This document shows positions 9,293-25,387 of a stretch of DNA of 64,000 bases, piece after piece. The position numbers and the translations under genes were made by a program. The stretch is taken from contig NZ_CP076135.1 in the NCBI RefSeq assembly GCF_018736105.1, forward strand, positions 1,362,001 through 1,426,000, in the 5' to 3' direction. Source of the stretch: Bradyrhizobium sediminis (GTDB taxonomy: Bacteria > Pseudomonadota > Alphaproteobacteria > Rhizobiales > Xanthobacteraceae). How positions within the stretch are numbered: position 1 is the first letter of the stretch; each line of letters begins with the position of its first letter. Under the pieces are notes generated by a model that saw nothing but the letters and a program-made list of their open reading frames with translations, did no database searches and was not told the DNA's origin.

Positions 9293-9407
9293 CATTGCCC
9301 GGCGTCATTCCCGTTTGCGCTGACACCCTCCTTGGAATGATGACCGTCGGCGGGTCGACAACCATTGCCGCGCAGCGCTACAAGCGATCGAGCAAATGGA
9401 GTTGGCA

Positions 9408-10808
9408 ATGGAAGATCTCTGGCGTCTGTCGGCCGCCGATGTCGCTGCCCTGGTAAAATCGAAGAAGATCTCGGCGAAGGAGGCGGCCTCGGCGGCACTT
9501 GCCCGGCTCGACGCGGTCAATCCCAGGATCAATGCCGTGGTCGACCATCGGCCGGCTGAGGTGCTGGCGCAGGCCGCCGCCATCGATGCGGCGATCGCGC
9601 GCAACGAAGACCCGGGTCCACTGGCGGGTGTGCCGGTCACCGTCAAGGTCAATATCGATCAGGAAGGGTTTGCCACCACCAACGGCCTCAAGCTGCAGCG
9701 CGATGCCATCGCGAAATCCAACAGCCCCGTGGTCGACAATCTGCGCCGGGCCGGCGCCGTCATTCTCGGGCGCACCAACTGCCCGGCATTCTCGTACCGC
9801 TGGTTCACCACCAACCTGATCCATGGCGACACCAAGAACCCGCGCGATCCCGGCATCACCCCCGGCGGCTCATCCGGCGGGGCAGGGGCGGCGGTCGCCG
9901 CCGGCATCGGCCATATCGCGCACGGCACCGATATCGCCGGATCGATCCGCTATCCGGCCTATGCCTGCGGCGTGCATGGCCTGCGCCCGACCGTCGGGCG
10001 CATCGCGGCCTTCAATGCGGCGCTGCCCGAGCGTCCGATCGGGCCGCAGATATCAGCGGTATCGGGTCCGCTTGCGCGTACCATCGGCGATGTCAGGATT
10101 GCGCTGGCGGCGATGTCGGCCAAGGATGCGCGCGACCCCTGGTGGGTGCCGGCGCCGCTGGAAGGCCCGGCGATGCCGAAGCGCGCCGCGCTGTGCCTCA
10201 ATCCCGATGGGCTTAATCCGGTGGCGGAAGTCAAAGCCGCCGTTGCGGATGCCGGCAAGCGGCTGGAGCGTGCGGGCTGGGTGGTCGAACAGATCGAGAC
10301 GCTGCCGCCGCTGCGCGAGGCCGCGGAACTTCAGACCAAGCTGTGGCTCGGCGACGGCTTTGAAGCACAACTGGCGGCGGCCGAGCGCGAAGGCGATCCC
10401 GGCGCGCTCGCCTGCCTGCGCGGCAACCGGACCAAGGTTTTTCCATTCGGCGTCGACACCTTGTCGAAAGTACTGACGCGGCGCGCGACGCTGATGCGCG
10501 AATGGCTGCAGTTCTTCGAGAAATTCGCCGTCCTGCTGATGCCGGTGTCCGGCGAATTGCCGTTTCCCGACGGGCTCGATATGCGCGATGACGCGTCTTT
10601 TGCCCGGGTCTGGCACGCGCAGCTGACGCAAATCGCCATTCCCTTCATGGGGCTGCCGGGGCTGACCGTGTCAACGGGGCTGGTGGGCCGCATTCCCGTC
10701 GGCGTGCAAGTCGTCTCCGGCCGTTATCGCGAGGATCTGTGCCTCGCTGCCGGCGAGGCGATCGAAGCCGGCGGAACCCCGTCGGCGGCGATCGATCCCG
10801 CGGGCTGA
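9408..10808 (+). CDS. Amidase (amidase signature family)
   Basis: Hydrolyses an amide bond with a Ser-cisSer-Lys triad. The 466-residue protein has the lysine in VPVTVKVNIDQEG, the glycine- and serine-rich signature TPGGSSGGAGAAVAAG and the nucleophile region HGTDIAGSIRYPA. All three triad residues are therefore present. There is no signal peptide. The ATG at 9408 is preceded by GGAG at a good distance; an ATG four codons upstream at 9396 is possible. The substrate cannot be read from the sequence: the family includes GatA, 6-aminohexanoate hydrolases and indoleacetamide hydrolases, and GatA itself is unlikely without gatB or gatC nearby. Confidence 0.9.
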   Translation: MEDLWRLSAADVAALVKSKKISAKEAASAALARLDAVNPRINAVVDHRPAEVLAQAAAIDAAIARNEDPGPLAGVPVTVKVNIDQEGFATTNGLKLQRDAIAKSNSPVVDNLRRAGAVILGRTNCPAFSYRWFTTNLIHGDTKNPRDPGITPGGSSGGAGAAVAAGIGHIAHGTDIAGSIRYPAYACGVHGLRPTVGRIAAFNAALPERPIGPQISAVSGPLARTIGDVRIALAAMSAKDARDPWWVPAPLEGPAMPKRAALCLNPDGLNPVAEVKAAVADAGKRLERAGWVVEQIETLPPLREAAELQTKLWLGDGFEAQLAAAEREGDPGALACLRGNRTKVFPFGVDTLSKVLTRRATLMREWLQFFEKFAVLLMPVSGELPFPDGLDMRDDASFARVWHAQLTQIAIPFMGLPGLTVSTGLVGRIPVGVQVVSGRYREDLCLAAGEAIEAGGTPSAAIDPAG

Positions 10809-13367: not shown

Positions 13368-13598
13368 TCATCTTGCGCCCTGCGCGCGGACCGCTGCGAC
13401 GATCTCGGCGGCGTCCGGAAAATGGCCCTTCAGGCGCCGGGCCACGGGCTTGCCGCCGACCGACACTTCGAACACGCCACCCTTGCCGGGCACGAGGTCT
13501 GCAACAATTCCAAGCTGCCGCTGCAGCGCCATCGCAACCTCCTTGGCGCGCTTCTCATAGCCGCAGGGACGACAATAGATGATGGATACGTCCGTCAT
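13368..13598 (-). CDS. SelT/SelW/SelH-like thioredoxin-fold protein (Rdx family, cysteine form)
   Basis: 76 residues with the redox motif CxxC in IIYCRPCGYEKRA near the N-terminus and GVFEVSVGGKPVARR with the family G-F/V-E-V block. Bacterial members have cysteine where the animal selenoproteins have selenocysteine, as here. The role is probably glutathione- or thioredoxin-linked redox buffering. The ATG has a strong AGGAGGT ribosome site. It lies 28 nt after the dehalogenase stop and 9 nt before the acetyltransferase start. Confidence 0.88.
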   Translation of the reverse strand: MTDVSIIYCRPCGYEKRAKEVAMALQRQLGIVADLVPGKGGVFEVSVGGKPVARRLKGHFPDAAEIVAAVRAQGAR

Positions 13599-15230: not shown

Positions 15231-16208
15231 TCACGATCCGGTAGCGCTCTTGCCGGACTGGATCCGCTGCATCGCCCAGCGCGCATTCTTGCGCACCTCC
15301 GGATCGGCATCCTCCATGATCGGCGCCAGGAATTTTTCGCCGGCGGGATCGGCGATCTCGCCTAGCGCGGCGGCGCTTTCCTTTCGCAGGTTGGCCTGCG
15401 GATGGACGACGCAGCCGCCGATCGCATTCACCGCACGGGCGACCTTCATCTTGCCGAGGCTGCGCACCGCTTTCAGCCGCACCTGCCAGAATTCGTCGTT
15501 CAGGCAATTGATCAGCGAGTCGGCCGCCTGCAGGCCGTGGACGTTGGTGCCGAGCGTCTCGGCGGCGATTTCCCGCACCATCCAGTCACCGTCGGCCAGC
15601 GCGCGGGTAATGGAATCGGTGGCGGATTTCATCTGCGAGAACGCCAGCGCACTCACCGCGGCGCGGCGGACATGCGGGTCCGGATCCGAAGTCGCAGCGG
15701 TCAGAGCAGGGATCGATTCTTCCATCTTGAGAAAGCCGATGACGCCGACCGCCTGTACCCGGACCGAGGCGTCGACATCGCGTAGCGCATCGAGTGCGGG
15801 TTTGAGCGAATCCTTGCGCCGCAGCTCCTTCAGCGCGCGCAGTGCGGCCATCCTGACGAAGGCGTGGGAATGATTGACCAGCGGCAGGATCGGATCGGCG
15901 CTGTCGGGATCCTTGAGTTCCGCCATGGCAGTGGCCGCGGCGGTCGCCACCGCCTGTTCGGGATCGACCACGAGCTTGGCGAGCGCCGCCGCAGTATCGG
16001 CCCCGTCGAACTCGCCGAGCGCGAGGCCGACCTGCTGGCGCACGCCGGGATCCGGGTCGGCCGTCATTCGATCGAGATGCGCCACCGCCCCGGGGTCACC
16101 GGAATTGGCCAGCGCGATGATCGCCACGCGGCGTTCGCCGGCGTCGGCGGCGTGCAGGCGGTCGTCGATGTCGTCGAGATCGTCATAGGCTTCGAACGGG
16201 TCTGCCAT
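15231..16208 (-). CDS. HEAT-repeat protein
   Basis: 325 residues of alpha-helical HEAT/PBS-lyase-type repeats. Recurrent motifs such as DPDPGVRQQVGLALGEF, DVDASVRVQAVGVIGFL, DPDPHVRRAAVSALAF and DADPEVRKNARWAMQR occur at roughly 30-residue spacing. Such proteins act as scaffolds or as lyase/chaperone partners in cofactor assembly. There is no catalytic motif. The gene starts 3 nt after the AprB-like ferredoxin stop, so it belongs to the same operon and may help assemble or hold the flavoprotein-ferredoxin complex. That role is inference. Confidence 0.9.
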   Translation of the reverse strand: MADPFEAYDDLDDIDDRLHAADAGERRVAIIALANSGDPGAVAHLDRMTADPDPGVRQQVGLALGEFDGADTAAALAKLVVDPEQAVATAAATAMAELKDPDSADPILPLVNHSHAFVRMAALRALKELRRKDSLKPALDALRDVDASVRVQAVGVIGFLKMEESIPALTAATSDPDPHVRRAAVSALAFSQMKSATDSITRALADGDWMVREIAAETLGTNVHGLQAADSLINCLNDEFWQVRLKAVRSLGKMKVARAVNAIGGCVVHPQANLRKESAAALGEIADPAGEKFLAPIMEDADPEVRKNARWAMQRIQSGKSATGS

Positions 16209-16211
16209 AGA

Positions 16212-16445
16212 TCACCTCAACAGATAGGGAATGTTGACCTTGACCGCGTCGGTCGGGCAATCGGCCTCGCACGGCATGCAATACCAGCATTCGTCGTAGG
16301 CCATGTAGGCCTTGCCGGTCATGTCGCTGATGCGCAGCACGTCGAGCGGGCACACATCGACGCAGACCGTGCAGCCCTTGTCGGCAATGCATTTGGCCTC
16401 GTCGACCACGACGGGAACGGAGGTTTGGTAACTGGCTAGCGGCAT
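16212..16445 (-). CDS. AprB-like 2x[4Fe-4S] ferredoxin
   Basis: 77 residues carrying two cluster motifs: C19-x5-C25-x2-C28-x3-C32-P and C53-x2-C56-x2-C59-x3-C63-P. The wide first spacing and the sequence KAYMAYDECWYCMPCEADCP are close to the beta subunit of adenylylsulfate reductase (AprB, DMCWECYSCVKMCP). The C-terminal tail by which true AprB wraps around AprA is absent; the protein stops soon after the second cluster. It lies 34 nt after the AprA-like flavoprotein and 3 nt before the HEAT gene. It should carry electrons to or from the flavoprotein. Confidence 0.88.
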   Translation of the reverse strand: MPLASYQTSVPVVVDEAKCIADKGCTVCVDVCPLDVLRISDMTGKAYMAYDECWYCMPCEADCPTDAVKVNIPYLLR

Positions 16446-16479
16446 CGGTCGGCTCCAGGATGCGAATTAGAGGTGAATG

Positions 16480-18222
16480 TCAGGCGGAAGCGCGCACGCG
16501 CTGCTTGTCGTACAGGTCCTTTTCCTCGTCGGCGATCGGAACGATGTAGGGCTCGACCGCGCGCTTTTCGCTGGTCATCTTGCCGTCCTTCTTGCTCAAC
16601 AGCGTGTGGCAGAACCAGTTCTCGTTGTCCTTTTCGGGATAGTCGGTGCGCAGGTGATAGAGGCCCCAGCGGCTTTCGGTGCGGTACAGCGAGGCATGCG
16701 CCGCCATATCGGCGCAGTCGACGATCGACTGGGTCTCGAGCGCGCGCAGCAGTTCGTGCGAATTGCGCGCGATCATCCGGTTTTCCATGTCGTCGCGAAC
16801 TTCGGCGAGGCGGCGCTGTCCGAGCTCGAACTTGCGCGTCACCTTCGGCGGCTGCAGATAGTCGTTGACCAGACGGCGCGCCTTGTACTCGACCTGGTTC
16901 GGCGGGATGCCGTCCTCACGTTTGGTCGGCGCCATCACGCGTTCGCGTTCCCGCTCGACGTCGCCGGCGTCGAATTTCGCAAAGTCGGTGCTGTCGGCGT
17001 ATTCCATCGCATGTTCGCCGGCCGCCGATCCGTTGGTGAAGGCGCCGAGCATGTAGTTGTGGGGTACGCTGGCCATATCGCCGGCGGCATAGAGACCGGG
17101 GATCGTGGTTCGGGCGAAATCATCGACGAACACGCCGGAAGCGCTGTGCCCGGAGCAGAAGCCGATTTCGGAGATGTGCATCTCGATCGGTTCCTCGCGA
17201 TAGTCGGTGCCGCGGCCCTCGTGAAACAGCCCGCGCGTCGGACGCTCGACCTTGTGCAACGTGGTCTCGATCTCGCTGATGGTATCTTCATGAAGATGGT
17301 TGAGCTTGAGGAAGACCGGTCCCTTGCCGGACTGCAGCTCGTTGTAGAATTCGAGCATCATCTGGCCGGACCAGTAATCGCATTCGATAAAGCGGGCGCC
17401 CTCGTTGTTGGCGGTGTAGGCGCCGAACGGGCCGGCGACATAGGCGCAGGCGGGGCCGTTATAGTCCTTGATCAGCGGGTTGATCTGGAAGCATTCGAGG
17501 TTCGCGAGCGCGGCGCCCGCGTGATAGGCCATGGCGTAGCCGTCGCCGGAATTGGCGGCGTTCTCGTAGGTGCCGAACATGTAGCCTGAGGTCGGCAATC
17601 CGAGCCGGCCGGCGGCTCCCATGCACAGGATCACGGATTTCGCCTTGATCACCAGGATCTCCGCGGTCCTTGTGTTGACGCCGATCGCCCCGGCGATGCG
17701 GCCGTCGTTGCCGGTCAACAGGCGGGTCGCCATGTAGCGGTTGGAAATCAGGATGCGGGCGCGCCGCAATTGGCGGTAGAGCGCCTTCTTGACGGTCTCG
17801 CCATTCGGCATCGGCAGCACATAGGTTCCGATGTGGTGGACCTTCTTGACGGCGAAGTCGCCGTTCTCGTTCTTGAGAAAGCGAATGCCGAAACTGTCGA
17901 GTTCCTCGATGATCGAGTAGCAGCGCTCGGCATATTTGTAGACCGCCTTCTGATCGACGATGCCGTCATTGGCGATGGTGATTTCCTTGGTGTACTGCTC
18001 GGGCGTGGCGTAGCCCGGAATGACGGCATTGTTGAGCCCGTCCATGCCCATGGAGATCGCGCCGGAGCGCTTCACATTGGCCTTCTCGAGCAGGACCACA
18101 TTGGCCTTGGGATTTTTCAGCTTGGCCTTCAGCGCGGCCATCGGCCCCGCGGTGCCGCCGCCGATCACCAAGACATCGCACGACACTTCCGAGAGGCCGT
18201 CGAGAATTTCGTCCATCGCCAT
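16480..18222 (-). CDS. AprA-like flavoprotein of the fumarate reductase/succinate dehydrogenase family
   Basis: 580 residues. The FAD-binding motif GGGTAGP is at 21-27. The segment VKRSGAISMGMDGLNN at about 50-65 matches the AprA form (ERSGA..QG...IN) rather than the histidyl-FAD motif of succinate dehydrogenase, so FAD is probably not covalently bound. A second FAD block is TIPGLYAAGDMASVPHNYML. The helical C-terminus is complete. In true adenylylsulfate reductase AMP and sulfite give APS, but no sat or apt gene is nearby, so the substrate is uncertain. Ribosome site AAGGA, 8 nt before the ATG. The neighbouring ferredoxin and ferredoxin-NADP reductase would provide an electron path. Confidence 0.88.
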   Translation of the reverse strand: MAMDEILDGLSEVSCDVLVIGGGTAGPMAALKAKLKNPKANVVLLEKANVKRSGAISMGMDGLNNAVIPGYATPEQYTKEITIANDGIVDQKAVYKYAERCYSIIEELDSFGIRFLKNENGDFAVKKVHHIGTYVLPMPNGETVKKALYRQLRRARILISNRYMATRLLTGNDGRIAGAIGVNTRTAEILVIKAKSVILCMGAAGRLGLPTSGYMFGTYENAANSGDGYAMAYHAGAALANLECFQINPLIKDYNGPACAYVAGPFGAYTANNEGARFIECDYWSGQMMLEFYNELQSGKGPVFLKLNHLHEDTISEIETTLHKVERPTRGLFHEGRGTDYREEPIEMHISEIGFCSGHSASGVFVDDFARTTIPGLYAAGDMASVPHNYMLGAFTNGSAAGEHAMEYADSTDFAKFDAGDVERERERVMAPTKREDGIPPNQVEYKARRLVNDYLQPPKVTRKFELGQRRLAEVRDDMENRMIARNSHELLRALETQSIVDCADMAAHASLYRTESRWGLYHLRTDYPEKDNENWFCHTLLSKKDGKMTSEKRAVEPYIVPIADEEKDLYDKQRVRASA

Positions 18223-18434
18223 CGCTTTTTCCTTCGCCTTGATCGAAGCAATTTCCGTTCCATGGAGTTTGAAACGGGTCTTTTTGCCAGAATAGGCGGG
18301 CGAGCCGTCGGCGATAGCAATTAGTTGTCAGCGCGATGAAAGGTTGCGAGATTCTGATTTCCGACGTGGCGACAACGCAAAGCGGCACTCGGCCTCCGTT
18401 GCCGGAAGCGGCGCGGCGGGTCAGGGGCGCCGGC

Positions 18435-19208
18435 CTAGCGTTCGACGAAAGCCTTTTCGATCACGAAATGGCCGGGCTCGGCGTGGTTGCCTTCCGAAAG
18501 ACCTTGCTGCTCGAAGCTGCGCCGCAGGTCTTCCAGCATGCCGGGGCTGCCGCACAGCATGATGCGGTCGGTCGCGATGTTCAGCGGCGGCAGGCCGATG
18601 TCGTGGAACAACTGCTCCGAAGCGATCAGGTCGGTGATGCGGCCGCGATTGCGGAACGGTTCGCGCGTCACCGTCGGATAATAGATGAATTGCCGGCGCA
18701 TCAGCGGGCCGAAGAACTCGTCATTATCGAGACTAGCGACCAGTTGCTCGCCATAGGCCAGTTCGGAGACCTGCCGGCAGCCGTGGACCAGAACGATGGT
18801 CTCGAACCGGTCGTAGATATCCGGGTCCTTGATCAGGCTGGCGAAGGGCGCGAGGCCGGTTCCGGTTGACAGCAGCAGCAGCCGTTTGCCGGGAAGCAGG
18901 TTGTCGGTCACCAGCGTGCCGGTGGCCTTGCGGCCAACCAGGATGGTATCGCCTTCCTCGATCTTCTGCAGCCGCGAGGTGAGCGGACCGTCCGCGACCT
19001 TGATACTGAAGAACTCCAGAGCTTCCTCGTGATTGGCGCTCGCCATGCTGTAGGCGCGCAACAGCGGCCGGCCGTCGACCTCGAGCCCGATCATCGCAAA
19101 CTGTCCGTTCTGGAACCGGAACCCGGAATTGCGGGTGGCGGTGAAGCTGAACAGGGTGTCGGTCCAGTGCCGGACGGAAAGAACTTTTTCTCGGTGGAAG
19201 GCGCTCAT
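18435..19208 (-). CDS. fpr: Ferredoxin--NADP reductase
   Basis: 257 residues of the bacterial subclass I Fpr type. The FAD-binding block is RPLLRAYSMASANHEE and the NADP-binding block STGTGLAPFASLIKDP. The C-terminal region includes MLCGSPGMLEDLRR and ends FVIEKAFVER, where an aromatic-poor tail follows the family. It exchanges electrons between NADPH and ferredoxin or flavodoxin. The ATG at 19208 begins MSAFHREKVLSVRHWTDTLF, typical of the family; an upstream ATG at 19307 adds basic sequence of no family resemblance. It is separated from the AprA-like gene by 212 bp, so it may be transcribed alone. Confidence 0.92.
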   Translation of the reverse strand: MSAFHREKVLSVRHWTDTLFSFTATRNSGFRFQNGQFAMIGLEVDGRPLLRAYSMASANHEEALEFFSIKVADGPLTSRLQKIEEGDTILVGRKATGTLVTDNLLPGKRLLLLSTGTGLAPFASLIKDPDIYDRFETIVLVHGCRQVSELAYGEQLVASLDNDEFFGPLMRRQFIYYPTVTREPFRNRGRITDLIASEQLFHDIGLPPLNIATDRIMLCGSPGMLEDLRRSFEQQGLSEGNHAEPGHFVIEKAFVER

Positions 19209-19421
19209 TGGGTTCGGTCCGATGTCGATGGTCGCGGTTCGCGTCACGCTGCGGTCGCGAAACCGGTTTCTGAAGCGACTGATCGGTGAGGGAACGAGAT
19301 CGCGCAATCTCGGTGAAGCAATCGCGGTTGATTAATTTCGGAAATAGTTGGCGTGGTCTGGCAACAAATTGCTCTCGCCCCGGCGGCATTGCTGGTCGAA
19401 TGCCGGCATGGAGAATTGGCC

Positions 19422-19733
19422 ATGTCCGCCTTGCTTGCTTCGCCCGCATCGGCCCCTGCGCACGTCGCCGTCAGCGACAATCTCGATTTTCTGGAACTGA
19501 CGACGGCGCAGGGGGAAGAGATCCGGCTACAGGCCGGGAGCCTTCGCGCCGCCTGCAAATGTGCTCACTGCGTCAGGGCGCGGATCGACGGCAGGTTCCC
19601 GGACCGGTTCGACGGCATCGCCATCACGCAAGTTTCTCCGATCGGCGATTACGCGATCAACATTGCATTCTCGGACGGTCACGCGCGCGGAATCTATCCG
19701 TGGAGCTATTTGTCCGAGTTGCAGGCCGGTTAG
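19422..19733 (+). CDS. DUF971 (GBBH-like N-terminal domain) protein
   Basis: 103 residues with the DUF971 pattern: LELTTAQGEEIRLQAGSLRA, then the CxxC site in CKCAHCVRARIDG, and SDGHARGIYPWSYLSEL at the end. In gamma-butyrobetaine hydroxylases the same domain binds zinc through three Cys and one His; the C-K-C-A-H-C cluster here could do so. Stand-alone DUF971 proteins are often found near iron-sulfur or Mrp genes. The ATG at 19422 has GGAG 8 nt upstream. It is divergent from fpr. Confidence 0.87.
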   Translation: MSALLASPASAPAHVAVSDNLDFLELTTAQGEEIRLQAGSLRAACKCAHCVRARIDGRFPDRFDGIAITQVSPIGDYAINIAFSDGHARGIYPWSYLSELQAG

Positions 19734-19802
19734 TCCGCTTACCGTTACGAGCGCTATTTGAGGCTGCGTCTCCCGATGGAGGTACCGCCGGGGCTGCCAA
19801 CT

Positions 19803-19818
19803 TGGCATAAGGCTTGCT
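19803..19818 (+). promoter_or_regulatory. Sigma-54 (RpoN)-type promoter of the Crp/Fnr gene
   Basis: TGGCAT-AAGGC-TTGCT matches the -24/-12 consensus TGGCAC-N5-TTGCW with one mismatch; the invariant GG and GC are 10 nt apart. Transcription would start near 19829, giving a leader of about 27 nt before the ATG at 19856. The match overlaps an upstream TTG that would otherwise be a possible start codon. No enhancer-binding protein gene is nearby. Confidence 0.6.
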
Positions 19819-19855
19819 GCGCTTTCAGAATTATAATTCCGATCTGGAGCGCAGA

Positions 19856-20641
19856 ATGCAGATCTATGCGGCTACTAACGCGGCAATGGGACCTGCGGCA
19901 GGGCGCCCGCGGGCAGCGGCTTCGAAGGGTGGAGAGTCGCTGCTCCTGACCGAAAGTGCGCGGTCGCTCGGCGGCGCACCATCGCTGTTCGAGGCGCTGT
20001 CGCAGGGCGAACGCGCGACCGTCCTCAAACACGGCCGCCGCAAGGTGTTCTACCGTGGCCAGACCCTGTTCAATCAGGGCACCAAGCATGACGGCATCTA
20101 TCTCATCGAGACCGGTCGGATAAGGGTTTTCTACACGGCTCCCTCCGGACGCGAAATTACGCTCGCCTACTGGCATCCCGGCAATTTCGTCGGCGGCCCG
20201 GAAGTGTTCGGCGCCGGCGTTCACCAATGGTCTGGCGTCGCCACCAGCAATTCAAGCGTCGTTCAGCTTCCCGGCAAGGAACTGCGGTCGCTCGTCGTGG
20301 AGGTGCCGAACCTCGCGATCGGGCTGATCGAAGGGCTGACCTTCAAGGGCAAGTGCTACTCGGCGCTGGCCCAGATGCTGGGGACGCGATCGATCACGGA
20401 GCGGCTGGCGCATCTGTTGCTGCACCTGACGGAACTTTACGGCGTCGACGATCCCGAAGGTATTCTGATTGGGGCGGCGTTCACCCATGCCGATCTCGCG
20501 CACATGGTGGGCGCCACGCGCCAATGGGTCACGATCAGCCTCAAGCGCCTGCAGGAAAAAGGCATCGTGGCGTCCCGGAAGTCGCAAATCATCGTTCGCC
20601 GGCCCGACCTGCTGCAGGGGATGAAAGGCCTGGGTGACTGA
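19856..20641 (+). CDS. Crp/Fnr family transcriptional regulator
   Basis: 261 residues. The cyclic-nucleotide-binding-like beta barrel runs from about residue 45 to 160 (VFYRGQTLFNQGTKHDGIYL, then GREITLAYWHPGNFVGG). The C-terminal helix-turn-helix is FTHADLAHMVGATRQWVTIS with recognition helix TRQWVTISLKRLQ. It has no N-terminal cysteine cluster like FNR, so oxygen sensing through iron-sulfur is unlikely. The ATG at 19856 has GGAG six bases upstream and sits just after the sigma-54-type promoter. It is the likely regulator of the ABC transporter genes that follow and perhaps of the divergent AprAB-like arm. Confidence 0.9.
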   Translation: MQIYAATNAAMGPAAGRPRAAASKGGESLLLTESARSLGGAPSLFEALSQGERATVLKHGRRKVFYRGQTLFNQGTKHDGIYLIETGRIRVFYTAPSGREITLAYWHPGNFVGGPEVFGAGVHQWSGVATSNSSVVQLPGKELRSLVVEVPNLAIGLIEGLTFKGKCYSALAQMLGTRSITERLAHLLLHLTELYGVDDPEGILIGAAFTHADLAHMVGATRQWVTISLKRLQEKGIVASRKSQIIVRRPDLLQGMKGLGD

Positions 20642-20822
20642 GCCGGTGCCCATTGCTTTGGCTTTGAGCGGATAAACTGCCCAAGGAGTAAGCACCCGGT
20701 CTTTCACGGCAACTAATCGACCGCCGGCACCAGACGACGTTTGCCGCATCGACCGGATCGACAAAGGATGGCGAAAAACAGGGAGCAATAACCCGAGGCG
20801 CATCAACCACCGAGAGGCTTTC

Positions 20823-22241
20823 ATGGATTGCAAATTGGGATATCGCAGCTTTTCCGTCCTCGTCGCAGCAGCAGCATTCGCCCTTGCCAGTCCGGCAGGC
20901 GCGCAGACCAAAGTCACGATCGGCATCGGAACCCAGGATACCACCACGAATACGGCCACCGTCGGCACCATCATCCGCCAGCTCAATTTGATGGAGAAGT
21001 ACCTCCCCAAGGACGGCAAATACGCCAACATCAAATTCGAGTTCGAGTGGCAGAACTTCACCTCCGGTCCGCCCGTCACCAATGGCATGATGGCGAACAA
21101 ATTGCAGTTCGGCATGATGGGCGACTATCCCTTGGTGGTGAATGGCTTCACCTTCGAGAGCAATCCCGAGAGCAAGAGCCGGCTGATCGCGGTTGCGGCC
21201 TACAGCCTCGAAGGTTCCGGCAACGGCCTCGTCGTCCACAAGGACTCGCCCTATTACGAACTGTCCGACCTCAAGGGCAAACTGGTCAGCGTTCCCTTCG
21301 GTTCCGCCGCGCACGGCATGATGCTGAAGGCGATGCAGGACAGGAAGTGGCCGTCCGACTATTTCCAACTGATCAGCCAGAGCCCTGAAGTCGGCTCCAC
21401 CAACCTGCAGGAAAAGAAGATCGACGCCCACGCCGATTTCGTTCCGTTCGCCGAACTGCTCCCGTTCCGCGGCTTCGCGCGCAAGATCTTCGACGGTGTC
21501 GAAACCAACCTGCCGACCTGGCATGGCGTCGTGGTTCGTACCGATTTCGCCGAAAAATATCCGGAAGTGGTGGTCGGCTACATCAAAGCGATCATCGCCG
21601 CCAACGCCTGGGTGCGCGCCGATCCGAAACTCGCCGCCGAAAAGATCCAGGAGTGGACCGGCATCAACAAGGAAGTGGTCTACATCTTCCTCGGTCCCGG
21701 CGGCAATATGACCACCGACCCCACCATCAAGCCGGCACTGATCGAGGCCGCGGCCACCGACGTCAAGGTGCTGCAGAATCTCGGCCGCATGAAGGAGTTC
21801 GATCCGAAGAAGTGGGTCGACGACAGCTATGTCCGCAAGGCCTATGCCGAACTGAAGCTGGACTATGACGCCGAGCTCAAGAGCACCCGGAACTACGAAG
21901 TCGCCGGCGAGGACAAGTTCTGCAAGAAGCCGATCGGCGATCCGCGCAAGGCCGGCGAGGTCTGGGTCGACGGCGAGGGCATTGCGCCCTACAGCAGCGC
22001 CGCCTGCACGCTCGGCGCCTATGCCGACATCAAGGCCAAGGGCAAGAAGATCAACGTCGCCTACGTCTTCGATACCTCGCGCGGCATCAAGCTGTTCGCC
22101 GACCAGGCCTACTACGCCGCCGGCAAGAGCGAAATCGCGCCGTTCCTGCTGAAGAAGGACGCCGAAGCCTATGCGGCGAAGATCGGCGGCAAGGTGCTGA
22201 GTTTCGACGATGCGCTGAAGACCGCAGTCAGCGGAGGTTAG
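20823..22241 (+). CDS. ABC transporter substrate-binding protein (SsuA/TauA/NrtA type) with NosL-like C-terminal domain
   Basis: 472 residues. A signal peptide ends near residue 27 (ASPAGA-Q), so the protein is periplasmic. Residues 30 to about 345 form the type II binding fold of the nitrate/sulfonate/taurine group (NFTSGPPVTNGMMANKLQFG, MGDYPLVVNG). From about residue 357 an extra domain follows: IAPYSSAACTLGAYADI, then NVAYVFDTSRGIKLFADQAY, and DAEAYAAKIGGKVLSFDDAL. This is the pattern of the second half of the copper chaperone NosL. The CGM copper motif of NosL is absent. It is followed by its permease and ATPase. The substrate is not known. Confidence 0.88.
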   Translation: MDCKLGYRSFSVLVAAAAFALASPAGAQTKVTIGIGTQDTTTNTATVGTIIRQLNLMEKYLPKDGKYANIKFEFEWQNFTSGPPVTNGMMANKLQFGMMGDYPLVVNGFTFESNPESKSRLIAVAAYSLEGSGNGLVVHKDSPYYELSDLKGKLVSVPFGSAAHGMMLKAMQDRKWPSDYFQLISQSPEVGSTNLQEKKIDAHADFVPFAELLPFRGFARKIFDGVETNLPTWHGVVVRTDFAEKYPEVVVGYIKAIIAANAWVRADPKLAAEKIQEWTGINKEVVYIFLGPGGNMTTDPTIKPALIEAAATDVKVLQNLGRMKEFDPKKWVDDSYVRKAYAELKLDYDAELKSTRNYEVAGEDKFCKKPIGDPRKAGEVWVDGEGIAPYSSAACTLGAYADIKAKGKKINVAYVFDTSRGIKLFADQAYYAAGKSEIAPFLLKKDAEAYAAKIGGKVLSFDDALKTAVSGG

Positions 22242-22243
22242 AC

Positions 22244-23146
22244 GTGGAAAGCTTGGCCATCAGGCGCGACCTGCAGGAACCTGCCGTGCCGCCGCCAACC
22301 CGGGAGATGCCGGCGGGGGAAACAACGCCCGTCGGCAGGCCGACGCTGACGACCTACGTGAAACGATGGCTGCAGCTCAACCGTCGCGGCCTGCGGGCCG
22401 CGGCGATCGGCGCGATCTCGCTGGCGCTGTTCCTGCTCGCCTGGCATCTGCTGACGACCTACAAGGTGGTTTTCTTCGTCCGCTTCACCAACGTGCCGTC
22501 GCCGGCGGCGGTCTATGAGAGCCTGGCCCGCGCCAGCCACGACTCGAAATTCTTCTTGCATGTGATGCTGAGCTGCCGCCGCATTCTGCTCGGCTTCTCG
22601 CTCGCCGCCGTCGTCGCAGTCCCGCTCGGGCTGGTGATGGGACGCTTCAGGCTCGCCCACGAGATCGTGTTTCCGGTCACCGAAATCCTGCGTCCGATCC
22701 CCGCCATTGCATGGGTGCCGATGGCGATCATGCTGTGGCCGACCAACGAGCAGAGCATCGTCTACATCACCTTCCTCGGATCCTTCTTTCCGATCCTGGT
22801 CAACACGCTGCACGGCATGTCGCTGGTCGATCCGGTCCTGGTGCGGGCGGCGCAGTGCCTTGGCGCCCGCGAGCTGTCGATTTTCCGCGAGGTCTACTTC
22901 CCGGGATCGCTGCCGCACATCTTCACCGGCCTTACCGTCGGAATGGGCGTGGCCTGGGTCTCGCTGATCGCAGCCGAGATGATCTCCGGCCAGTACGGCA
23001 TCGGCTATTTCACCTGGGAAGCCTACTCGCTGGTGCAGTACGCCGACATCGCGCTCGGGATGATCTGCATCGGCGTACTCGGCCTCGGATCGAGCGCGCT
23101 GATCCGCGGACTGGGCCGCCTCGTCATGCCATGGAGCCGATCATGA
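22244..23146 (+). CDS. ABC transporter permease (SsuC/TauC/NrtB type)
   Basis: 300 residues with a hydrophilic N-terminus of about 50 residues and then about six membrane segments (first at AAIGAISLALFLLAWHLL). The cytoplasmic EAA loop that contacts the ATPase is VRAAQCLGARELSIFREVYF followed by PGSLPHIFTG. The start codon is GTG at 22244, two bases after the stop of the binding protein, with GGAGG six bases upstream. The stop overlaps the ATPase start as ATGA. Confidence 0.93.
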   Translation: MESLAIRRDLQEPAVPPPTREMPAGETTPVGRPTLTTYVKRWLQLNRRGLRAAAIGAISLALFLLAWHLLTTYKVVFFVRFTNVPSPAAVYESLARASHDSKFFLHVMLSCRRILLGFSLAAVVAVPLGLVMGRFRLAHEIVFPVTEILRPIPAIAWVPMAIMLWPTNEQSIVYITFLGSFFPILVNTLHGMSLVDPVLVRAAQCLGARELSIFREVYFPGSLPHIFTGLTVGMGVAWVSLIAAEMISGQYGIGYFTWEAYSLVQYADIALGMICIGVLGLGSSALIRGLGRLVMPWSRS

Positions 23147-24018
23147 GCCAGACCGTCGCGAGCCAGCCTCCCAGGGGCCGCATCGACGTCAGAAACTTCG
23201 CCTTGAGCTATCCGACCCTGGATGGCCCGGTGGAGGCGGTCAGCGACGCCACGATCCACGTCAACCCAGGCGAGTTCGTCTCGATCGTCGGGCCGTCCGG
23301 CTGCGGCAAATCCACTTTGCTCAACGCGGTCGCGGGCTTTCTCAAGCCGACCGGGGGCGACGTCACGGTCGACGATGAAGTGGTGGACGGTCCCGGCGCC
23401 GATCGCGGAATGGTGTTCCAGCAATATTCGCTGTTCCCGTGGAAGACGGTCAAGGGCAACGTCGAATTCGGCCTCAAGATGAAGCATCTCGATAAGTCGA
23501 GCCGGGACCGCGCCGCGCGCACGCTGCTCGGCCTCGCCGGGCTCACCGCTTTCGAGAACAAGTATCCGGACAGCCTGTCGGGAGGCATGAAGCAGCGCGT
23601 CGGCATCGTTCGTGCGCTCGCCACCGGGCCGAAGGTCCTGCTGCTCGACGAGCCGTTCGGCGCGCTTGATGCCCAGACCCGGATCATCATGCAGCAAATT
23701 CTCACCAACATGTGGCAGCGCCTGAAGATATCGGTGCTGTTCGTCACCCACGATATCGACGAGGCGATCTTCCTGTCGGACCGGGTCTATTGCATGACGG
23801 CACGCCCGGGGACGATCAAGGCCGAGATCGCCATTCCGCTCGAGCGTCCCCGGCATCAGTCGATGATGATGTCGTCGGAATTCCTGGCGCTGCGCCGCGG
23901 CCTGATGTCGTTGATCCGCGAGGAGAGCATCAAGGCGATGGGCGGTGAGGTCAGCGATCTCGCGCTGGATGGCCTGAGCATCGACCTGCACGGCCAGACG
24001 CTCGCCGACCTGGTCTGA
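23143..24018 (+). CDS. ABC transporter ATP-binding protein (SsuB/TauB/NrtD type)
   Basis: 291 residues. Walker A is GPSGCGKST (50-58), the Q-loop FQQYSLFPWKTVKGN, the signature LSGGMKQRVGIVRAL, Walker B KVLLLDEPFGALD and the switch histidine LFVTHDIDEAIF, all intact. The C-terminal extension of about 50 residues is of the usual kind for nitrate/sulfonate/taurine importers. It powers uptake through the permease encoded just upstream, with which it overlaps by 4 nt. It ends 13 bp before the convergent malonyl-CoA decarboxylase gene. Confidence 0.95.
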   Translation: MSQTVASQPPRGRIDVRNFALSYPTLDGPVEAVSDATIHVNPGEFVSIVGPSGCGKSTLLNAVAGFLKPTGGDVTVDDEVVDGPGADRGMVFQQYSLFPWKTVKGNVEFGLKMKHLDKSSRDRAARTLLGLAGLTAFENKYPDSLSGGMKQRVGIVRALATGPKVLLLDEPFGALDAQTRIIMQQILTNMWQRLKISVLFVTHDIDEAIFLSDRVYCMTARPGTIKAEIAIPLERPRHQSMMMSSEFLALRRGLMSLIREESIKAMGGEVSDLALDGLSIDLHGQTLADLV

Positions 24019-24031
24019 CCGCCCGACCCGG

Positions 24032-25387
24032 CTACGACAGCCGCATGTCCAGCAGCCGCCGGCCTTCGGTCTTCAGCAATTTCTTCACCGCGCTGGAAGC
24101 GGCGACCTCGCCCTGGTTGGCGTAGGCCTCGTGGTTCTTTTCGATATCCTCGAGGCGATAGAGATAGTTGACCATGATCCCGGCGGACTCGCGCATACCC
24201 TTCGGCGAGAGATCGCCGAGCCAGTCGATCCGCTCCAGCCGCGCGCCGTTGCCGAGATGGAATCGCGCCACCGAATCGATCAGCCGGCCCTTCGGCGTGC
24301 GCGCCTTCAGGAAGTAGTAGGCCGCGAGCGGCTCCAGCACCGCGCGCAGTTTTGACGCCAGTTCCGCATCCTCGAACCAGTCGGGCCTGTCGAGATTTTC
24401 CAGCAGCGCCCGCTCCTCGTCGGTGACCGGAACGTCGTTTCCCTGCTTCAGCCACGTGACAAGACCCGGCACCGGCGACAGCGTCACGAAGTTCTCCAAC
24501 TTCGGCAGTTCGCGCCGCAATTCCTCGACCACCTGCTTGATCAGGAAGCTGCCGAACGAGATGCCGCCGAGCCCGCGCTGGGTGTTGGAGATCGAATAGA
24601 ACACCGCGGTGCGGGCGCGCTCGACCGGCACCAGGGTGCGGTCTTCGGCGAGCAGCGGCGCGATCGCGGCGGGAATCGCTTCGGTCAGCGCCACCTCGAC
24701 GAAGATCAGGGGCTCGTCGACCAAGGCGGGATGGAAGAAGGCGTAGCAGCGCCGGTCGACGGGATCGATGCGGCGGCGCAGATCGTCCCAGTCGCGGATC
24801 TCATGCACCGCCTCGTAGCGGATGATCTGTTCCAGAATGTTCGCTGGCGTCTGCCAATCGATTCTGCGCAGCACGAGAAATCCCCTGTTGAACCAAGAAG
24901 ACAAAAGATGCACGGCGTCGCGGTCGACCGCGGCGAGATCCTCGTGCCCATTCATGAGGCGGAGCAGATCGGCGCGCAGCGCCACCAGTTCGCTGGTGCC
25001 ACCGGGCGCGCGGTTCAGCCGCCGGATCAGTTCCTGCCGCCGCGGCTCCGACGCAAAGTGCAGGTCGCTGGCGTCCTCGTCGGAGGGTTGGCTGCGCCAA
25101 GCCTCGATTGCCTGCGCAAGCCGTTCCCGGTCCGGGCCGTAATCGCGGGCCAGGGTTTCGAAGAACGCAAGCCGGCCGGCCTCGTCGAGATTGCGATAGC
25201 GGTCGAGAACCTCGCGCGCCATCGCGGTGCCGGAAGCTTCGCCGCGGCCCGACAGCAGCGCCTCGCACAGTTGGATCAACTCGCTGACGTCCTGTTTCGC
25301 GTCCGTCGACCCCGCGCGCCGCAGCAGGGTGCGGCCGCGCTCGGAAATCGAGGCGAGGAGGTCGGTAAAGAAGGCGTTGCTGCTCAT
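24032..25387 (-). CDS. Malonyl-CoA decarboxylase
   Basis: Converts malonyl-CoA to acetyl-CoA and CO2. The 451-residue protein has an N-terminal helical domain and a C-terminal GNAT-like catalytic domain with YSISNTQRGLGGISFGSFLI (catalytic serine region), FVTLSPVPGLVTWL, FHLGNGARLERIDWL and MVNYLYRLEDIEKNHEAY. This is the MatA/MLYCD family. In rhizobia matA usually lies with matB (malonyl-CoA synthetase) and matR; neither is seen here. No signal or targeting peptide. It is convergent with the ABC transporter and preceded by a 261-bp gap. Confidence 0.95.
   Translation of the reverse strand: MSSNAFFTDLLASISERGRTLLRRAGSTDAKQDVSELIQLCEALLSGRGEASGTAMAREVLDRYRNLDEAGRLAFFETLARDYGPDRERLAQAIEAWRSQPSDEDASDLHFASEPRRQELIRRLNRAPGGTSELVALRADLLRLMNGHEDLAAVDRDAVHLLSSWFNRGFLVLRRIDWQTPANILEQIIRYEAVHEIRDWDDLRRRIDPVDRRCYAFFHPALVDEPLIFVEVALTEAIPAAIAPLLAEDRTLVPVERARTAVFYSISNTQRGLGGISFGSFLIKQVVEELRRELPKLENFVTLSPVPGLVTWLKQGNDVPVTDEERALLENLDRPDWFEDAELASKLRAVLEPLAAYYFLKARTPKGRLIDSVARFHLGNGARLERIDWLGDLSPKGMRESAGIMVNYLYRLEDIEKNHEAYANQGEVAASSAVKKLLKTEGRRLLDMRLS

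Follow-up and report, generated by a model that had tools for sequence, protein, structure and literature searches.

A conserved gene module pairing an AprA-like flavoprotein with a sulfonate-type ABC importer in Bradyrhizobium sediminis

What does a flavoprotein of the adenosine 5'-phosphosulfate (APS) reductase type act on when residues that bind APS in its relatives are replaced and an ATP-binding cassette (ABC) importer is encoded beside it? The question is raised by nine genes at positions 15231-24018 of a 64-kb window (the whole stretch of DNA analysed) of the single-contig, 5.45-Mb genome of Bradyrhizobium sediminis (GCF_018736105.1). The minus-strand arm encodes, in order, a ferredoxin-NADP+ reductase (FNR), an AprA-like flavoprotein, a 2[4Fe-4S] ferredoxin and a HEAT-repeat protein; the plus-strand arm encodes a DUF971 protein, a Crp/Fnr-family regulator, a periplasmic substrate-binding protein, a permease and an ATPase. 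All nine open frames named in an earlier note on this DNA were located at these positions, and each matched the family given for it. The component families are known, and the enzyme is a variant AprA-type flavoprotein; the interest of the module lies in its being a cohesive gene set found in three phyla and often plasmid-borne, with an APS-reductase-type enzyme whose APS site appears rebuilt for another substrate. We found no published description of it in the open-licence literature, and one may exist elsewhere. We regard as evenly balanced the proposal that the module imports a small sulfo-compound, other than APS or 3'-phosphoadenosine 5'-phosphosulfate (PAPS), and cleaves it reductively.

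Association of the two arms

Of 592 relative loci, the 80 most similar to the query set were used, a sample skewed to Bradyrhizobium; the 61 of at least 21.6 kb (28 Bradyrhizobium, 26 genus labels) form the full-length set, 19 shorter loci being excluded, and gene presence was scored with each family represented by several tblastn queries. Ferredoxin and HEAT were present in all 61, DUF971 in 58, and the whole importer (binding protein, permease and ATPase) also in 58, the binding protein occurring in at least one locus for 24 of the 26 genus labels. A Crp/Fnr regulator was found in 51 loci and a GntR/UTRA regulator in 12, with at least one of the two in 59, and FNR was found in 41 (15 of the 26 genus labels) and FdxA in 17. 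An importer within 10 kb was not found in three of the 61, from Xanthobacter (L081), Beijerinckiaceae (L084) and Paraburkholderia (L102). The controls were random 20-kb regions from a set of module-bearing genomes other than the set supplying the 61 loci (40 drawn, five overlapping others excluded); in the remaining 35, the same search returned no module-type ferredoxin, HEAT, DUF971, binding protein or regulator, and it returned an ATPase in four, a permease in two and FNR in one.

Co-occurrence was also assessed independently of adjacency in 299 Pseudomonadota genomes, with E up to 1e-150 for the flavoprotein and up to 1e-40 for the binding protein. The flavoprotein was found in 15 genomes and the binding protein in 15, and the 15 are identical; in one of these 15 (G211), the two genes lie 2.9 Mb apart on one contig, each with its own neighbours. 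Some genomes are common to the locus set and the genome set, so the two are not independent. That the two arms belong together, which the earlier note had drawn from adjacency, is thus upheld both by the loci and by the genomes: flavoprotein, ferredoxin, HEAT and importer recur as a neighbourhood, and the contrary possibility, that the arms never occur together, was not borne out. We consider it very probable that the nine genes form one functional unit.

The position and strand of the binding-protein gene relative to the flavoprotein gene differ among the 58 loci with both (opposite strand in 29, same strand in 22, between ferredoxin and HEAT in seven), and gene order is therefore variable. 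In Acinetobacter, Cupriavidus and several Burkholderiales, the module is one run of genes, and on Leptolyngbya and Pseudanabaena plasmids importer, LysR, flavoprotein, ferredoxin, HEAT and Mrp genes lie in a row. Tsukamurella encodes GntR, ferredoxin, binding protein, permease, ATPase and a flavoprotein-HEAT fusion in one operon; such a fusion also occurs in Nonomuraea, and that of Tsukamurella matches NCBIfam PRK13800 at 1568 bits. The Nostoc plasmid module is looser: between the flavoprotein gene and those for ferredoxin, HEAT and Mrp lie five other genes, a sulfonate-type binding protein of shorter length is encoded ahead of them, and the stretch has neither a permease nor an ATPase annotated.

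The gene set occurs in Pseudomonadota, Cyanobacteriota and Actinomycetota, on plasmids and chromosomes, Methylobacterium radiotolerans JCM 2831 being among its carriers, the cyanobacterial and actinobacterial modules having been sampled via plasmid records. The flavoprotein was found in 50 plasmid records (E up to 1e-100), some of them chromosome-sized; plasmid counts for the module are upper bounds, because some PLSDB "plasmids" look chromosomal. The records NZ_LT559118.1 (11.85 Mb) and NZ_CP104448.1 (4.09 Mb) look like chromosomes, and CM018764.1, an Acinetobacter "plasmid" of 44 kb, is perhaps a fragment of a chromosome. Two plasmids carry degenerate modules: that of Mesorhizobium pMLa (L020:11704-16873) lacks the module binding protein within the stretch, and its short Crp gene adjoins an IS110 element; that of Acidithiobacillus caldus pTcM1 (L026:16065-20324) has a shortened binding protein beside ISAtc1. 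A pattern search of viral contigs matched three stretches, none of which encodes a relative.

The flavoprotein and its electron supply

The putative catalytic subunit, a flavoprotein of 580 residues predicted to bind flavin adenine dinucleotide (FAD; 16480-18222, minus strand), scores 1072.2 bits against PRK08275 (NF006131; cut-off 587) and is thus by score a member of that family, whose label names no substrate; in PRK13800 (NF010374), the same enzyme carries HEAT repeats by fusion. Its named close relatives in the search are mostly from Rhodopseudomonas and Bradyrhizobium. The family is strikingly conserved, and more so than that of the binding protein, with a mean column identity of 77% (33 rows) versus 55% (29 rows). 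Against the two AprA models, the flavoprotein scores 156.9 bits (TIGR02061; cut-off 641.75) and 286.1 bits (PRK06854; cut-off 557).

A tree was built from 13 module rows, eight AprA rows, MtPAPSR, SdhA and NadB, the AprA rows being eight of 19 APS-reductase-type loci (L169 to L187); nine loci without a suitable frame or not taken up, L170 (wrong frame) and L172 were left out, and two actinobacterial fusions were trimmed to their first 600 residues (620 in the alignment). The eight AprA rows pass TIGR02061 (918-1097 bits) and fail PRK06854 (376-410 bits). A branch with 100/100 support separates the 13 module rows from the eight AprA rows, which places the module enzyme outside true AprA, the position on which the earlier note had made its reading depend. 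MtPAPSR groups with AprA on a long branch, and its place is uncertain. By sequence, the nearest solved structures are MtPAPSR 8a8o (E 1e-57 with the single sequence, 1e-78 with a profile) and then AprA 1jnr; by fold, a predicted model of the flavoprotein (mean pLDDT 74.8, several poor loops) is nearest to the same two, with a TM score of 0.84 normalized to query length for both.

According to the AprAB study (PMC2211403), the sulfate group of APS is contacted in AprA by Asn74, Trp234, Arg265 and His398, and the adenine is clamped by Arg317. Comparison of the 13 module rows with these residues, as the earlier note had proposed, showed part of the site to be kept and part of it to be replaced. 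Asn74 and His398 are retained as Asn64 and His359, and Arg265 and Trp234 are replaced by Leu250 and Tyr219, in 13 of 13 rows. The CLRNH segment, which we tentatively take to carry Arg317 (A. fulgidus numbering), aligns with a gap in each of the three module rows inspected, and the AMP-channel residues Gly274, Val273 and Phe277 are replaced by Cys, Ala (Ser in one row) and Val. AprA Trp144 aligns with the invariant Tyr134 of the module rows, in which Cys244, Cys259 and Cys356 are also invariant. Module enzymes further have a five-residue insertion with an invariant His129 and a YVLPMP motif, located at the loop (residues 104-123) proposed in the MtPAPSR report (PMC10322725) to set substrate choice. 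Because the sulfate-contacting Asn and His are kept while other APS-binding residues are replaced, the sequences suggest that AprA-type chemistry may be retained within a rebuilt nucleotide pocket.

These comparisons bear directly on another reading, that of an ordinary APS/PAPS reductase, whether dissimilatory or assimilatory. The AprA fold and domain order and the two-cluster ferredoxin partner fit that reading, and so do the counterparts of Asn74 and His398 and the ferredoxin tryptophan (see below); against it stand scores far under both AprA cut-offs, the separate clade, the replacement of Arg265 and a genome without ATP sulfurylase (Sat). The AprB tail is also missing, and the Arg317 segment apparently so. 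The 15 module genomes, moreover, gave no second match to the APS-reductase model (E up to 1e-60, four candidates per genome). We regard this reading as highly improbable, and the flavoprotein module is almost certainly not AprAB. MtPAPSR, the PAPS reductase of Methanothermococcus thermolithotrophicus, offers a closer likeness, being composed of a fumarate-reductase-family alpha subunit and a two-cluster ferredoxin-like beta subunit and keeping the catalytic Asn and His; the module differs from it in having Leu250 where MtPAPSR keeps Arg, in the His129 insertion and YVLPMP loop, and in having a HEAT partner, often an FNR, and its own ABC importer.

Databases name the protein a fumarate reductase/succinate dehydrogenase flavoprotein subunit, in keeping with its FAD_binding_2/Succ_DH_flav_C superfamily, and a hydride-transferring enzyme of the fumarate-reductase type could act on an imported organic anion, saturating a C=C bond or reducing some other group that lacks sulfur. 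We take His242, Thr254, Glu255, Arg286, His354 and Arg399 to be the substrate residues of SdhA. In a profile alignment, the counterpart of His354 is present as His349 of the window protein, whereas His242, Thr254, Glu255 and Arg286 are replaced by Asn248, Ala260, Tyr261 and Gly286, and the Arg399 loop is missing; the database name is contradicted by these active-site residues. The protein is also nearer in sequence and fold to PAPS/APS reductase than to SdhA/FrdA, its partner is a small two-cluster ferredoxin and not an SdhB/FrdB-type subunit, and sulfur-related genes neighbour the module in several lineages. A fumarate-type reaction is, on this evidence, unlikely.

The ferredoxin (77 residues; 16212-16445, minus strand; Fer4_7) has eight Cys and a CWYC motif, and ends 14 residues past its last Cys; it corresponds to an AprB-like core without the C-terminal tail. 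The tryptophan of the CW(Y/F)C motif, the counterpart of AprB Trp48, is kept in nine of nine aligned ferredoxins. In the AprAB study this tryptophan relays electrons to FAD (PMC2211403), and the MtPAPSR report proposes the same relay (PMC10322725). The aprB model gives the window ferredoxin 30.1 bits (cut-off 135.65), and AprB (3gyx_B, 166 residues) and the MtPAPSR beta subunit (8a8o_C, 104 residues) are weak matches to it, below polyferredoxins (FwdF); the family placement of the ferredoxin is ambiguous, in that polyferredoxins outscore AprB.

FNRs in such bacteria mostly reduce ferredoxin, and the FNR of the window (257 residues; 18435-19208, minus strand; PF00175/PF00970; PRK10926, 149 bits, below the cut-off of 390) is the probable entry point of electrons. 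The occurrence of FNR in 41 and of FdxA in 17 of the 61 loci fits NADPH as donor; Burkholderiales loci have no nearby FNR, and the electron donor must there come from elsewhere. The HEAT-repeat protein (325 residues; 15231-16208, minus strand; PF13646, 168 bits) is a probable scaffold of the flavoprotein complex, a role suggested by the fusion of HEAT to the flavoprotein in some relatives. The DUF971 protein (GBBH-like_N; 19353-19733, plus strand; PF06155, 66 bits; start codon uncertain) probably serves Fe-S cluster maturation, since DUF971 and DUF59-Mrp, the latter carried by the two cyanobacterial modules examined, both form parts of HCF101, an Fe-S carrier of plants.

An FNR can work both ways, and the flavoprotein might instead oxidize a sulfur compound, imported or intracellular, with electrons passing through ferredoxin and FNR to NADP+, or to cytochrome c in the loci with copper genes described below. 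Cytochrome c is encoded in eight of the 61 loci, and AprAB works in both directions in nature (PMC2211403). The features that bind AMP for APS synthesis from sulfite are replaced, the genome lacks Sat, and the conserved set contains no membrane electron acceptor; in the MtPAPSR report, that related enzyme gave no measurable reverse reaction (PMC10322725). We regard the oxidative direction as rather improbable, and infer that the flavoprotein would act as a reductase.

Importer, regulators and the copper genes

The binding protein (472 residues; 20823-22241, plus strand) has lobes of the sulfonate type, with the expected fold. Family scores place it closest to SsuA (SsuA_fam, 113.4 bits; cut-off 163.5) and TauA (62.7; cut-off 304), and structure matches cover mainly residues 27-355. 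Proteins for sulfur-free ligands are also among the matches to the lobes (PqqT, Thi5-like, nitrate, bicarbonate), which counts in favour of the fumarate-type reaction considered above. The permease (22244-23146, plus strand; PF00528, 85 bits) and the ATPase (23140-24018, plus strand; PF00005, 112 bits) are both of the nitrate/taurine/sulfonate type. For the permease the NtrB, SaoP, TauC and SsuC models all score below cut-off, with SaoP level-best; for the ATPase SaoA (262 bits) is best, followed by ntrCD and TauB (235 bits each), all again below cut-off. The module thus resembles the SAO-type importer (SaoA/SaoP/SaoX models) in the best score of its ATPase and the level-best score of its permease, and differs from the SAO system in that all scores are below cut-off and no other Sao component is among the families reported. 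It differs from SsuABC and TauABC in its sub-threshold family scores, in an extra NosL-like C terminus of about 110 residues, and in that the importer's partner is an AprA-like enzyme and not SsuD or TauD.

The NosL-like domain, which was absent from the earlier note, matches PF05573 marginally over residues 376-464 (25.9 bits; cut-off 24) and is not reported for the binding proteins of L066 and L111. From residue 360 on, Trp381, Tyr414, Gly421 and Ala447 are invariant among 29 binding proteins, and no position in this region has a Cys, Met or His in as many as half of the 29 rows. No structural match was obtained for the NosL-like part; as the matches cover mainly residues 27-355, this does not count against the fold.

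The presence of this domain raises the possibility of copper or organometal acquisition, in which a metal complex would enter through the importer and be reduced by the flavoprotein so that the metal is released. The Sao scores of ATPase and permease point the same way, as do SCO1 in nine, PCuAC in seven, cytochrome c in eight and a CC-motif membrane protein in eight of the 61 loci, with such genes also in the shorter loci L062 and L088. Copper as substrate is set back by the lack of a conserved metal ligand in the NosL-like domain; in addition, the Sao scores are all below cut-off and the binding lobes are of the sulfonate type. Within the 61 loci, the copper genes are limited to Rhodobacterales-type loci, Filomicrobium and one SCO-like match in Zoogloea; they occur in none of the 28 Bradyrhizobium loci, in no Methylobacterium or Paraburkholderia locus, and none is annotated in the cyanobacterial or Tsukamurella modules. 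We consider metal acquisition very unlikely as the function of the module.

The copper genes lie between permease and ATPase genes: in L066 (13798-20534), as well as in L062, L065, L068-L070, L072, L073, L077 and L088, SCO1/SenC, usually PCuAC, a cytochrome c and a membrane protein of 220-240 residues with a CCATP motif are encoded there. The L066 module also encodes a TlpA-like thioredoxin; its CC-motif membrane protein (238 residues) gave no Pfam match, and no tblastn match in the plasmid collection.

The Crp/Fnr-family regulator of the window (19814-20641, plus strand; PF00027, PF13545; start codon uncertain) lies between the DUF971 and binding-protein genes. A search of the stretches between these genes for a shared Crp/Fnr box, a weak test, found none: TTGA-N6-TCAA occurs in one of 51 FNR-DUF971 stretches and in none of 45 Crp-binding-protein stretches, TGTGA-N6-TCACA in none of either, and GTGA-N6-TCAC in seven of the 51 FNR-DUF971 stretches, all Methylobacterium-type, where the stretch comprises kilobases of genes. 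Two LysR regulators (L107:12349-14385 and L108:12251-14266) carry a C-terminal copy of the binding-protein domain (in the L108 protein, encoded between the arms in Pseudanabaena, 32% identical over 297 residues), and such a regulator is apparently a cytoplasmic sensor made from the transporter's binding protein.

Sulfur context and the proposed reaction

ATP sulfurylase, whose absence at the locus the earlier note had pointed out, is absent from the whole 5.45-Mb genome, PF01747 giving no match, while the same search was positive in five of 14 control genomes. The genome has five PF01077 (nitrite/sulfite reductase) matches at three places, none of them in the window, and these genes, of either the nitrite or the sulfite type, are candidate sulfite reductases for released sulfite. 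No AprM or Qmo component is among the nine genes, and no genome search for AprM/Qmo was made.

Sulfur-related genes neighbour the module in relatives. The putative sulfate exporter YeiH is encoded near 26 of the 61 modules and in none of the 35 controls; of these loci, 21 are from Bradyrhizobium and one each from Actibacterium, Thalassococcus, Labrenzia, Aquabacter and Methylobacterium, and YeiH is also present in the Pseudanabaena module. LLM flavin-dependent oxidoreductases are encoded near five of the 61 modules versus none of the 35 controls, and also in Mesorhizobium, Cupriavidus and Sinorhizobium plasmid loci, the latter two including NtaA/DmoA types. In Nostoc, metX, metY and a YeeE/YedE protein (below model cut-offs) are encoded downstream of the module, within about 6 kb of the Mrp gene.

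Sister importers are found beside sulfatases. In Paraburkholderia largidicola (L111:8842-16046), a binding protein 58% identical to that of the window is encoded adjacent to an arylsulfatase, its maturase and SulP; in Gordonia (L109:578-12340), where the binding protein is 34% identical, the arylsulfatase and maturase are less tightly placed. In both stretches the maturase is a formylglycine-generating enzyme and no flavoprotein is annotated.

A panel of sulfur proteins was searched in three sets: the 64 module loci that reach 19 kb, 15 stretches taken from 14 module genomes, and the 35 controls. YeiH gave 25, 4 and 0 matches in the three sets, LLM 5, 0 and 0, acyl-CoA dehydrogenase 1, 0 and 0, metX 0, 0 and 1, and M20 0, 0 and 1; SsuD, MsnO8, arylsulfatase, metY, TSUP and SulP gave no counted match in any set. 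The "SsuA" matches of the panel (38, 4 and 0) were discarded, being taken as the module's own binding protein because all module matches but one had 25-29% identity.

The sulfur neighbours (YeiH, LLM, metXY and the sulfatases beside sister importers) are thus real but uneven. The suggestion that the module takes up a small anion, perhaps containing sulfur, is supported: the SsuA/TauA-like lobes and the sulfur neighbours favour it, though neither the substrate nor the reaction direction is proven. We infer a sulfur substrate with sulfite as product, a proposal to which we give an even chance, and a sulfate ester is our best guess at the substrate, held tentatively.

In the proposed reaction, the SsuA/TauA-type importer would bring a small sulfo-anion into the cytoplasm, and electrons from NADPH would pass through FNR (and the 7Fe ferredoxin FdxA where present) to the 2[4Fe-4S] ferredoxin, whose conserved tryptophan would hand them to the FAD of the AprA-like subunit. 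N5 of the reduced FAD would attack the sulfur of the sulfo group, positioned by Asn64 and His359; the remainder of the substrate would leave, and the FAD-sulfite adduct would decay to sulfite, to be used by sulfite reductase or exported (by YeiH in some lineages). HEAT would scaffold the complex, DUF971 (Mrp in cyanobacteria) would mature the Fe-S clusters, and the regulator would sense the imported compound. Such reductive desulfation, in which a low-potential flavin removes the sulfo group of an imported sulfate ester or similar compound as an N5 adduct and yields sulfite, is possible rather than probable. A sulfate-ester bond stores less energy than APS, and a supply of low-potential ferredoxin would therefore be sensible, by way of argument and not of result.

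Several observations weigh against a link to sulfur. An arylsulfatase was found in none of the 80 relative loci, there is no sulfur neighbour inside positions 15231-24018 of the window, and among the 15 stretches from module genomes YeiH occurs in only four and LLM in none. SCO1, cytochrome c and the membrane protein accompany the module in eight of the 61 loci, which are Rhodobacterales-type or Filomicrobium, seven of them with PCuAC, and the Labrenzia module encodes a TlpA-like thioredoxin; this copper-gene group points to copper or respiration, an unexplained link.

If correct, reductive desulfation would be a third route for opening sulfate esters, beside hydrolytic sulfatases and oxygen-dependent alkylsulfatases, and it would deliver sulfur directly as sulfite, skipping ATP-driven sulfate activation. 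If sulfite is indeed released from an organic sulfo-compound, bacteria of soils, plants and the sea would have a further, new branch of sulfur assimilation.

Some further gene sets were seen near modules or sister importers. In Sinorhizobium, the module (L112:15097-19240) is followed by genes for MsnO8 and NtaA/DmoA oxidoreductases, an M20 deacylase and a GNAT protein, a set reminiscent of N-acetylation routes for S-substituted cysteines. Plasmids of Gordonia (L109:578-8514) and Mycobacterium (L130:5344-11170) share an arylsulfatase, a maturase, GntR, a gyrB-type gene and two DUF202 genes.

In the window itself, the ATPase gene is adjoined by a convergent malonyl-CoA decarboxylase gene (24032-25387), and the HEAT gene by genes for a TetR regulator and an alpha/beta hydrolase. 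A few genes beyond the HEAT end lies that of a small Rdx-family protein with a CRPC motif (13368-13598, minus strand; PF10262, the SelT/SelW/SelH-like family). An amidase is encoded nearby at 9396-10808; amidases occur near six of the 61 modules and in none of the 35 controls, a weak signal.

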